Below are positions 3,279 through 48,209 of a stretch of 59,885 bases of DNA, piece after piece. The notes below the pieces were generated by a model. The model ran no database searches and was not told the DNA's origin. It saw only the letters and a program-made list of their open reading frames with translations. The first letter of the stretch is position 1. Every line of letters begins with the position of its first letter. Source of the DNA: an uncultured Bacteroidota bacterium (GTDB taxonomy: Bacteria; Bacteroidota; Bacteroidia; B-17B0; Aurantibacillaceae); assembly GCA_903834765.1 (NCBI GenBank), contig CAILKE010000077.1:1-59885 (forward strand), given 5' to 3'. Both the position numbers and the translations under genes were made by a program.

Positions 3279-5291
3279 ATGAGTAAATTAGATTCAAAGA
3301 TTCCAGAAGGTACGATAGATCAAAAATGGTCTAAATACCGTTCTACAGTTCACCTTGTAAACCCAGCTAATAAGCGTAGCTTAGAAGTATTAGTTGTAGG
3401 TTCTGGCTTAGCTGGTGCTTCGGCAGCAGCTTCGTTAGCCGAAATGGGATATAAAGTAAAAGTATTTTGTTTTCAAGATTCTCCGCGTCGTGCTCACTCT
3501 ATTGCAGCGCAAGGTGGCATCAACGCAGCTAAAAATTATCAAAATGATGGTGATTCAACTTACCGTTTATTTTACGATACAATCAAAGGTGGTGATTATA
3601 GAGCTCGCGAAGCAAACGTTCATCGTTTAGCTGAAGTATCTTCAAGCATTATCGATCAATGTGTAGCTCAAGGTGTGCCTTTAGCTCGCGAGTACGGTGG
3701 CTTATTAAGTAACCGTTCGTTTGGTGGTACTCAAGTGCAACGTACGTTTTATGCGGCAGGACAAACTGGCCAACAATTATTATTAGGCGCATACTCGGCT
3801 TTACAACGACAAGTTGGTATGGGTGCAGTTGAATTATGTGCTCGTCACGAAATGTTAGATGTAGTTACTATTGATGGTATTACCCGTGGCATCATAGCTC
3901 GTAATTTAATAACAGGCGAAATGGAAAAACATTTTGGTCATGCTGTTTTATTATGCACAGGTGGTTATGGAAACGTTTTCTACTTATCTACAAACGCGAT
4001 GGGAAGTAACGTAACAGCTGCATGGAAAGCTCACAAAAAAGGAGCGTTTTTTGCAAATCCTTGTTACACTCAAATTCACCCAACTTGTATCCCTGTTTCT
4101 GGTGATCACCAATCTAAATTAACATTAATGTCCGAATCGTTGCGTAACGATGGGAGAATTTGGGTTCCAAAAAAGAAAGATGACACTCGTAAAGCAACTG
4201 ACATTCCTGAAGAAGAGAGAGATTACTATTTAGAGCGTCGTTATCCTGCGTTTGGAAATTTAGTTCCTCGTGACGTAGCTTCTCGCGCAGCCAAAGAGCG
4301 TTGCGATGCTGGTTACGGTGTTGGTAATTCTAAAATGGCAGTGTATTTGGATTTTGCATTCAATACTGCTCGTTACGGAAAAACTGAAGCTACTAAACTA
4401 AACATTCACAATCCAAGCCAAGAAGACATCATGCGCTTAGGGAAAGAAGTAGTGAAAGAAAAATACGGTAACTTGTTTGACATGTATCAACAAATTACTG
4501 GTGAAAATCCATACGAAGTACCAATGCGTATTTATCCTGCAGTTCACTATACAATGGGTGGATTATGGGTTGATTACAACTTAATGACAACAGTAAAAGG
4601 GTTGTACGCATTAGGTGAAGCTAATTTCTCTGATCATGGAGCTAACCGTTTAGGCGCTTCAGCTTTAATGCAAGGTTTAGCTGATGGTTATTTCGTAATA
4701 CCATATACTTTAGGTGTTTATTTATCCGCCGAAGTAACTCGTATGAGTGCTGAAAAAGATAATGCAGATTCTATTGATAAATTAAAAACAAACCATCCTG
4801 CATTTGAGACTGCATTAAAAGAGCAAACAGAATTAATCAATAAATTTTTAAATATAAATGGCACTAAATCAGTAGAAAGTTTCCATAAACGTTTAGGATT
4901 AATTATTTGGAATAAATGTGGCATGGCTCGTAATAAAGAAGGTTTAACAGAAGCTATTTCTGAAATACAAGCATTACGTAAAGAATTTTGGAGTGATGTA
5001 CGTGTATTAGGAAGTGCAGATGAGTTTAACCCAGATTTAGAAAAAGCAGGTCGTGTGGCTGACTTTATAGAACTAGGCGAATTAATGTGTAAAGATGCAT
5101 TACATCGTGAAGAAAGCTGTGGAGGCCACTTCCGTGAAGAACACCAAACAGAAGAAGGCGAAGCAAAACGTGATGATGTGAACTTTGCATATGTTGCTGC
5201 TTGGGAATATAAAGGTGTTAGCGAATGGGAATTGAATAAAGAAGAATTAAAATACGAGAATATTAAAATAGCACAACGTTCTTATAAATAG
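3279..5291 (+). CDS. sdhA: Succinate dehydrogenase/fumarate reductase flavoprotein subunit
   Basis: This 670-residue catalytic subunit oxidises succinate to fumarate with covalent FAD. The Rossmann motif GSGLAG is at 41-46 and the FAD-linking histidine H73 sits in [13 protein letters not shown]. The substrate-capping and active-site segments HPTCIP and [12 protein letters not shown] are intact, as is [14 protein letters not shown] near the second FAD contact. It belongs to the long b558-type SdhA group. The TAG stop is part of the left arm of an 11-bp inverted repeat, which continues into a decayed element before sdhB. Confidence 0.96.
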
Positions 5292-5508
5292 TGATTAGTG
5301 AATTAGGAGATTTACTTTCATGATTTATTTTATCACAAAAATTAGGATTCCAAACTCATGATAAACTCAGTAAAATGTGGACTCTTATTGAAGAAGAATC
5401 AAAAATGATTAATAGTTTAATAACCGTAATTAAAAAATAATAAAAAATAAAAAACTTGACAAGTGCTTAGTTTTGCATTAATCACTTGTCACTAATAACT
5501 AATCACTA
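5289..5508. repeat. Inverted-repeat-bounded insertion between sdhA and sdhB
   Basis: TAGTGATTAGT (5289-5299) and ACTAATCACTA (5498-5508) are perfect 11-bp inverted repeats enclosing about 200 bases. A second perfect inverted repeat, GACAAGTG (5458-5465) and CACTTGTC (5483-5490), lies near the right end. Inside is the tail of a four-helix-bundle gene. The left arm includes the sdhA stop; the right arm ends 6 bases before the sdhB ATG. I infer a small inserted element, now decayed. Confidence 0.55.
5300..5440 (+). pseudogene. Remnant of a four-helix-bundle (23S rRNA intervening-sequence type) protein
   Basis: One frame from 5300 reads ELGDLLS, a TGA at 5321-5323 where the family usually has Trp or a similar residue, then FILSQKLGFQTHDKLSKMWT and EEESKMINSLITVIKK to TAA at 5438-5440. 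The closing pattern E(E/I)SKM(L/I)NxLI is typical of the last helix of four-helix-bundle/S23 proteins, which are very common in Bacteroidota intergenic positions. Only the last third remains and it has no start, so it is a relic. Family assignment is by recall of pattern, not by search. Confidence 0.55.
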
Positions 5509-5514
5509 AATAAA

Positions 5515-6288
5515 ATGGGATCAGGACACGGAACAGAATTGAATCTAACTTTAAAAGTTTGGAGACAAAAAAACACGAAAGCTTCAGGTAGCTTCGAAAC
5601 TCATCAATTAACTGGCATCTCTACGGATATGTCGTTTTTGGAAATGTTTGATGTGTTAAACGAAAAATTAATTCATGAAGGGAAAGAAGCAATTGCATTT
5701 GACCATGATTGCCGAGAAGGGATTTGCGGAATGTGTTCAATGTACATTAATGGTCGCCCACATGGACCAAAAAATGGTGTTACAACTTGCCAGTTGCACA
5801 TGCGTTCATTTAAAAATGGCGACACAATAGTTGTAGAACCTTGGAGAAGTGCTGCATTTCCTGTCATTAAAGATTTAGCAGTTGATAGAGGTGCTTTTGA
5901 TAGAATTATAGCTTCAGGTGGTTATGTATCTGTAAACACAGGTAATGCTCGTGACGCTAATAATATTTTGATACCAAAAGATGCAGCAGATGAAGCTTTT
6001 GGAGCAGCAGCTTGTATTGGTTGTGGAGCTTGTGTTGCAGCTTGTAAAAATGGATCTGCAATGTTATTCGTATCTGCTAAAGTTTCTCAATTAGCTTTAT
6101 TACCTCAAGGACAAGTAGAGCGTAAAGCACGTGTGCTAAAAATGGTTGCGGCGATGGATGAAGAAGGATTTGGAAATTGTACCAATACAGGAGCTTGTGA
6201 AGCTGAATGTCCAAAAGGAATTTCTTTAGAAAATATAGCGCGTATGAATCGTGAATTAACATCTGCAGCGTTAACTTATACTAAATAG
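5515..6288 (+). CDS. sdhB: Succinate dehydrogenase iron-sulfur subunit
   Basis: This 257-residue electron-transfer subunit links the SdhA flavin to SdhC. The plant-type 2Fe-2S domain has C66, C71, C74 ([10 protein letters not shown]) and C92. The C-terminal dicluster domain has [15 protein letters not shown] (about 167-181) and [16 protein letters not shown] (about 221-236) for the 4Fe-4S and 3Fe-4S centres. It ends the sdh operon and is followed by a strong terminator. The 223-base gap from sdhA is unusual for this operon and is filled by the inverted-repeat element; an internal promoter for sdhB is not evident. Confidence 0.95.
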
Positions 6289-48126: not shown

Positions 48127-48135
48127 TTATAAATT

Positions 48136-48184
48136 TTGAATGATAAAATATAAATGAAGCAAGTTGATATAATTTATCATTCAA
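48136..48184. repeat. 12-bp inverted repeat between fabG-like and ketosynthase genes
   Basis: TTGAATGATAAA (48136-48147) and TTTATCATTCAA (48173-48184) are perfect reverse complements 25 bases apart. The right arm runs into a tandem ATTCAAC duplication (48179-48193). It could be a small mobile remnant or an mRNA hairpin that sets the relative expression of the two genes. Confidence 0.6.
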
Positions 48185-48209
48185 CATTCAACATTTAAAA
48201 TTATTAAAG

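Follow-up and report, generated by a model that had tools for sequence, protein, structure and literature searches.

Alignment with sister copies confirms, at the level of sequence, that positions 5289-5508 of the 59,885-nucleotide stretch of DNA analysed here (the window) hold a decayed four-helix-bundle gene of family PF05635 (23S-IVS/S23), a dead member of a class of small elements. We consider it probable, at about 0.66, that this segment is what is left of an element in which two inverted arrays of ~7-nt repeats enclose one PF05635 gene, and that the unit spreads at the DNA level in the manner of a homing element.

The insert between sdhA and sdhB

The features of the locus are as follows.

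3279..5291, + strand: sdhA (flavoprotein); Pfam FAD_binding_2 1.5e-48, Succ_DH_flav_C 3.1e-36
5289..5301, + strand: left arm (TAGTGATTAGTGA); same letters in three sister copies (L030, L033, L037)
5294..5440, + strand: PF05635 four-helix-bundle gene remnant, from alignment with the sisters; in-frame TGA at 5321-5323
5457..5491, + strand: inner hairpin, halves 5457-5469/5479-5491
5479..5508, + strand: right arm, degenerate heptads TAATCAC TTGTCAC TAATAAC TAATCAC TA, the inverse of the left-arm words
5515..6288, + strand: sdhB (iron-sulfur subunit), starting 6 nt past the right arm

The initial annotation had placed, at the sdhA stop, an inverted-repeat element containing a dead four-helix-bundle gene, and alignment to the sister copies bears this out. 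The outer repeat it described (5289-5299/5498-5508) is an 11-bp perfect inverted repeat that extends over 5282-5299/5498-5515 as 18 nt at 83%, and its inner repeat is likewise present, with 13-nt halves matching at 92%. The element may, as proposed there, supply the sdhA stop, since the TAG at 5289-5291 sits within the left arm. The frame with one TGA in which a likeness to an S23/four-helix-bundle protein had been seen runs from 5294 for 48 codons and stops at 5438-5443. Pfam returned 0 families at E up to 1 for the window fragment alone, and the bundle identity of the remnant comes from its DNA alignment with L030, L033 and L037; the intact sister orthologue L086, which is the gene in L030, matches PF05635 at 7.1e-30. 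In that alignment the window copy lacks ~230 internal nt relative to its orthologues and carries the in-frame stop, the N-terminal part of the gene having gone by an internal deletion with its junction near 5301-5304. The heptad reading of the right arm is backed by the period-7 test run on other elements (below).

Taken alone, the 11-bp repeat is only mildly unusual and is weak evidence: of 3150 segments of 400 nt drawn at random from this genome, 46 have an inverted repeat of that length at 150-260 nt spacing, and one arose in 11 of 2000 mononucleotide shufflings of 5282-5515. The first of these frequencies is what speaks for an unremarkable sdhA-sdhB spacer holding a terminator or an inverted repeat that arose by chance, a reading that we regard as extremely improbable because sister species carry homologous genes at the same site, the pattern extends across the class, and the alignment already contradicts it. 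The case thus rests on the relatives; within the same genome, DNA resembling the whole window element gave short weak matches only. Elsewhere in the window, two small adjoining ORFs (1740-2283) resemble, by eye, a type II toxin-antitoxin pair.

Occupancy of operon junctions in relatives

A search with SdhB gave matches in 57 of 60 genomes, the window's own included; 30 of these loci, again with our own, were inspected for the sdhA-sdhB gap, which was measurable in 29 (sdhA was not found at L054). The genus set comprises 20 genomes, in 19 of which the junction is readable, the G009 match starting at a contig end, and SdhB is 92-95% identical to that of the window in 15 of 19 genus relatives. 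Orthologues of the window remnant occupy the junction in three genus genomes (open in L030 and L037, with a stop in L033), while a second kind of bundle gene is found there in L031 and a third in L034 and L042; identity is 38-53% between the three kinds and 89-95% within the first. Beyond the genus, L049 and L050 hold a further bundle kind at the same place.

The frame therefore has homologues in sister species, and the segment is absent from several others, so that it is not a fixture of all relatives. The empty site that the initial annotation had suggested looking for is seen in five genus genomes as an 8-nt sdhA-sdhB gap (tagaaact in four, tagaaacg in one). Four genus genomes have gaps of 23, 46, 113 and 119 nt, with arm-like words, by eye, in those of 23, 113 and 119 nt. 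In L040, L041 and L043 the gap measures ~1.1 kb and is occupied by an unrelated gene. The pairs G015/G005 and G010/G002, each united with 100% bootstrap support in an sdhB tree that is weakly resolved overall, are sister species with different occupants.

Two further junctions, between genes that we take to be sufC and sufD and, presumably, nuoJ and nuoK, behave similarly. At the former, an element is present in 5 of 20 genus genomes and a remnant in one (G013); the next start lies 1-2 bases past the sufC stop in 11 (two of them on short contigs, read by eye), and the remaining three have gaps of 35-44 nt. At the latter, 4 of 19 matched genomes carry an element, the gap is 11-49 nt in 13 and 110 nt in one, and one contig ends at the junction. 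The short nuoJ-nuoK gaps of G006 and G017 contain a right-arm-like heptad run that reads as the scar of a lost element, and in some carriers the final codons of the upstream gene resemble arm sequence (by eye). Elements stay long at a junction, yet in sister species they are absent or reduced to scars.

Decay is also seen at other loci. A paaB-paaC bundle gene split over two frames (L006 1501-1870) is a second decaying copy in the window's genome, and an internal stop interrupts the bundle frame of Pedobacter borealis (L239 2001-2318).

Architecture of the elements

The window's own genome has 8 PF05635 matches, which make 7 genes, one of them frameshifted. Our discovery set comprised 153 distinct PF05635 matches, a few being halves of one broken gene, of which 139 were full length; they were drawn from nearly all of 81 genus entries (20 genomes), the sdh loci, and 70 class loci among the matches listed from 119 genomes (30 automatic and 40 top-ranked). 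As controls we used 331 genes located in 450 kb of the window's own genome. A common architecture is apparent, in which one bundle gene, usually between co-directional genes, is flanked by arrays that repeat every 7 nt exactly and are mostly G-rich when read inward. Where both neighbours could be called, they share the element's strand at 78 of 78 loci (those of the genus together with L049 and L050 from the family) and at 58 of 71 elsewhere in the class; for comparison, of 151 gaps measuring 30-260 nt in the 450 kb, 100 are co-directional at all.

With stringent scoring of inverted arms, 120, 103 and 88 of the 139 elements exceeded the control 95th percentile, 99th percentile and maximum, respectively, leaving 36 arm pairs not above the 99th percentile; the direct orientation gave 16 of 139, against the 103 and 88 above the upper two thresholds. 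This scoring was adopted after a lenient first scoring (79, 34 and 15 of 139 above the same thresholds) had separated elements from controls less well. An element's own arm was the best among 139 partners in 55 elements, and 45 of 68 stood above the control maximum when one element per junction class was counted. Own arms beat median cross arms in old junction classes (16/16, 11/13, 8/8 and 8/8) and mostly did not among close orthologues (1/5, 0/4, 1/4 and 1/3), own and cross scores being equal in most close-orthologue sets; in three further close-orthologue classes own arms won in 2/3, 2/3 and 3/3.

Relative to shuffles, 93 elements with clean spacers showed an excess at period 7 (z 18 and 26) and at period 14 (z 11 and 18), with a small excess at period 8 (z 3 and 6), whereas 84 control gaps of the same genome gave z 1.5 at period 7. 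Strong period-7 runs were found in 38 of 222 elements (53 kb) versus two places in 450 kb, one of which is within a gene and the other of which is a gene-less hairpin of the window. The left spacer contains 19% G and 8% C, while G makes up 8% and C 20% of the right spacer; 82 of 93 elements show both skews. Among 176 loci with usable arms, G exceeds C on the inward strand in 162, falls below it in 11 and equals it in three. All 15 elements lacking two co-directional neighbours showed the same inward excess (14 distinct, L144 being the L293 record; L175 and L181 are orthologues), which implies that the polarity belongs to the element and not to the host operon. L228 and L238 carry the arm words of L227 with the U and D sides swapped, that is, with reversed polarity.

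One claim of the initial annotation, that the elements have common TAGTGATTAG-type ends, did not hold, since each locus has its own inverted pair. The TAGTGATTAG 11-mer occurs six times in the genome, twice at the window element, and by eye the other four sites have no bundle gene or inverted partner; the seven other bundle genes of the genome have, by eye, seven different inverted pairs. Shared TAGTGATTAGT ends were accordingly rejected. The rule common to the elements is a 7-nt period and a polarity, not a sequence, and terminal repeats common to copies, as in a classical transposon or MITE, are not a feature of the present elements.

Among the 151 gaps already mentioned, two ~80-nt hairpins with heptad arms and no gene stood out, the names of the adjacent genes being our assumption.

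48127..48209, + strand: gene-less inverted heptad hairpin, 83 nt, between presumed fabG-like and KAS-like genes of the window
L200 12757-12836: gene-less heptad hairpin between presumed atpA-like and atpG-like genes of the same genome

The two hairpins look like the arms of the pdhA-pdhC element L004, and exact 12-base words are common to the L004 arms and the window hairpin; the remaining strong hairpins among those gaps look like terminators.

Evidence for movement of gene and arms

The bundle gene was less diverged than its flanks in 35 of 55 orthologous pairs (>=80% identity), with a mean pS of 0.553 versus 0.604 (p 0.011). Six low pairs were chosen for testing, and two are extreme: L078/L079, with 3/66 synonymous differences in the bundle versus 226/417 in the flanks (p 4e-16), and L030/L037 at sdhA-sdhB, with 8/68 versus 197/377 (p 1e-10); the other four gave p 0.006-0.015, uncorrected. 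In both extreme pairs identity climbs within ~60 nt of the upstream stop and drops within ~70-130 nt of the downstream start. Two species pairs thus share the element more recently than its flanks, with a short co-transferred flank, and these two lateral cases (2 of 55 orthologous pairs) could be homing or ordinary short-tract recombination. The class does look mobile, as the initial annotation had suggested.

Arm words were compared for 113 elements with good arms beyond the genus, in pairs with no detectable flank homology (some flanks being short). At protein similarity >=0.6, arm-word similarity was 0.174 versus 0.100 in GC-matched pairs (122 pairs), and at >=0.65 it was 0.272 versus 0.101 (45 pairs); restricted to different genomes, the values were 0.175 versus 0.103 (116 pairs) and 0.271 versus 0.104 (42 pairs), with 0 of 2000 permutations in all four comparisons. 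The cut-offs tried were 0.5, 0.55, 0.6 and 0.65, giving 34, 10, 0 and 0 of 2000 permutations. The correlation between gene and arm words over all protein distances was not significant (141 of 1000 permutations), so the relationship concerns near relatives only. As arm words track protein relatedness at unrelated junctions, gene and arms have evidently travelled together.

These data also bear on the reading that the arms are mutational by-products of 7-nt slippage and quasi-palindrome template switching beside a bundle gene that is an ordinary small gene. Arm words do differ among elements of one junction, and a proposal that heptamers favour polymerase slippage is cited in PMC4692102. However, ordinary gaps of the same genome lack period 7, strong period-7 runs are concentrated in the elements, the polarity accompanies the bundle gene, and at unrelated junctions related proteins come with similar arm words; we judge this origin quite unlikely.

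In a poorly resolved tree of the 139 proteins, junction labels change 26 times against a minimum possible of 21, which implies that elements of the same junction mostly group and that moves to new junctions are rare. Three candidate recent ectopic jumps within the genus (L103/L105, L090/L098 and L066/L073) were not counted, each having a homologous neighbour gene on one side. No target-site duplication was seen when empty and filled sites were compared by eye, where the arms blur the edges. That gene and arms behave as a unit able to move, rarely to new junctions, is fairly well supported.

Replication and spread

For replication, named genomes were scanned with a single bundle protein, and the best 80 of 577 loci were taken together with six of the 29 matching plasmid records; 83 of these 86 loci were full length, and omission of L293, which duplicates a discovery locus, left 82. 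The mean own arm score was 19.9 versus 10.3 across loci, with 53 of 82 above the cross-locus 95th percentile and 58 of 82 above the control maximum of the discovery set. Period 7 recurred in 46 elements (z 24 and 24), 35 of which had both skews, and neighbours were co-directional in 70 of 75. Among 17 loci chosen for other phylum labels, 12 scored >=18 and L222, L265, L277, L290 and L301 scored 6-12; the high scorers include two Nostoc plasmids (AGGGAGT- and GGGAACA-type arrays), one Pontiellaceae genome, and MAGs titled Anaerolineae, Atribacterota and Omnitrophota, titles that may be wrong. Some cyanobacterial plasmid bundle genes lie within CRISPR operons (L222, L224, L226), at cas6-cas4 twice and once between cas10 and a Cmr3-family gene.

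Of 119 genomes sampled from the window's class, which named relatives suggest to be Bacteroidia, 95 carry PF05635, as do 301 of 395 in a second sample, evidently of the same class, as part of the first sample's places recur in it. With one bundle protein as query, 29 of 72,556 plasmid records matched, mostly cyanobacterial ones, and 0 of 50,697 phage records. As anatomy, the architecture is well supported as real and widespread.

The bundle protein

The bundle gene is under purifying selection: median omega between orthologues was 0.053, ranging up to 0.75, in 50 usable of 58 pairs (8 saturated). XCC0516 of Xanthomonas campestris is reportedly made of five four-helix bundles. A predicted model of the L227 protein (pLDDT 94.5) matches XCC0516 (2GSC, TM 0.90) and BT_0352 (2RLD), and XCC0516 in turn fits the bundle profile (2GSC, 4.8e-33). 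The median pI of 139 bundle proteins is 6.5, with 30 above 8, so nucleic-acid binding by the protein is not obvious.

The L227 model also resembles Avd of diversity-generating retroelements (DGRs; 4DWL, 8UB7) at a TM of about 0.8 and E 0.25-0.5, which points to the same fold. No reverse transcriptase, in contrast to DGRs, and no transposase or other additional gene was noticed in the elements inspected by eye. A partnership with reverse transcriptase was rejected, as PF05635 and RVT_1 are not associated: PF05635 occurs in 34 of 42 genomes with an RVT_1 match and in 61 of 77 without (tallied by hand), and 61 of the 95 bundle-bearing class genomes have no such match.

Relation to known systems

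Heptads are also known from the Nostoc trnL intron and as the cyanobacterial STRR heptamers. The heptamer tandem repeats of Xanthomonas and Nostoc (GGGAATC/GGGGAYT), as described in PMC4692102, are mostly intergenic and of unknown role; their G-rich strand is preferentially the sense strand downstream of a stop codon and the antisense strand upstream of a start codon, and they form inverted pairs in 70 and 75 cases in two Xanthomonas genomes. They share with the present elements the unit of 7 by start and stop codons, the preferred strand polarity and the inverted pairs, but are described there with one consensus per genome and no bundle gene, whereas our words vary by locus; the terms 'S23' and 'four helix' are absent from that paper. 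According to PMC4679880, TAACTGA heptamers occur in Beggiatoaceae, some Cyanobacteria and five Bacteroidetes, mostly intergenic and often just before a start codon, with a patchy spread and no evident mechanism. Unit length, intergenic siting and patchiness are as in our elements; unlike the present arms, these are direct repeats with almost no inverted pairs reported, and this paper likewise contains neither 'S23' nor 'four helix'. The published arrays (PMC4692102, PMC4679880) may be related to the present elements.

The 23S rRNA intervening sequences (IVSs) with an S23 ORF, as in Coxiella burnetii, have terminal repeats that form a 28-bp RNase III-cut stem and are described as selfish and decaying (PMC4990558, in excerpt). 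They have in common with our elements the PF05635 family and complementary ends around one ORF. They differ in that the window element lies between sdhA and sdhB and not in a 23S rRNA helix, and in that the present elements, known from sequence, have heptad arrays particular to each locus and often occur several times in a genome. MITEs and REPIN-RAYT systems similarly combine gene-less inverted relatives with gene-bearing elements, but the ends of our elements are not conserved between copies and no transposase was noticed. A phage-element table in PMC5524665, seen in part, lists a four-helix-bundle gene between guanylate kinase and nicotinate adenylyltransferase genes, which fits the pattern. 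The initial annotation's view of an overlooked class agrees with our literature search, which covered mostly listings, outside subscription papers and preprints, and turned up no paper tying PF05635/S23 bundle genes to heptamer arrays, such arms or operon gaps. As a whole, that annotation's interpretation is partly supported.

DNA-level or RNA-level function

The arms might instead be a domesticated mRNA device, forming a long hairpin in the polycistronic RNA that RNase III cuts, so that the bundle message is removed or the operon halves are uncoupled, with the protein binding its own stem and kept for regulation. Co-directional placement, purifying selection with long retention at a junction, and the RNase III-cut stem of 23S IVSs with an S23 ORF (PMC4990558, in excerpt) all favour such a device. 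Selected mRNA pairing should, however, favour sense-strand G.U among mismatches, and over 176 loci we counted 100 sense-strand G.U against 114 opposite transitions, with no excess and hence no RNA-strand preference. The patchy presence with empty sites between close species, and the good arms of the same polarity that are retained in elements not aligned with host genes, also weigh against it. The wobble result is compatible with RNA cleavage; because it lends the RNA reading no support, we prefer the DNA-level reading and regard the mRNA device as possible but unlikely.

DNA-level, homing-like spread is what we infer. The bundle protein, with its XCC0516-like fold, would hold or mark both heptad arms and may help to copy the unit into a matching gap, mostly by recombination via flanking homology and rarely into new gaps. 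The arms would change through 7-nt slippage and be kept complementary either through template switching or because protein binding is selected. An operon would stay readable with an insert placed between one gene's stop codon and the next gene's start, so that copies would be tolerated until they decay, as the window copy has.

More broadly, and only tentatively, as we doubt that the whole scheme will hold, the elements might be a mobile class without fixed ends in which the bundle protein is a specificity factor for inverted heptad arrays and mediates homing-like moves into operon gaps free of reverse transcriptase. The gene-less arrays of Xanthomonas, Nostoc and perhaps Beggiatoaceae would then be non-autonomous derivatives, and rRNA IVSs and DGR Avd specialised offshoots.

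Significance

Although PF05635 bears the name '23S rRNA-intervening sequence protein', no bundle locus with identified neighbours lies in rRNA. The housekeeping operons sdh and pdh harbour small elements able to provide a stop codon or the following gene's leader, and further hosts are presumably nuo and suf for elements and atp for a gene-less hairpin. The element may connect two features of bacterial genomes that lack an explanation: if bundle genes and heptamer arrays belong together, the repeats gain a protein and the protein gains repeats, both of which are testable.
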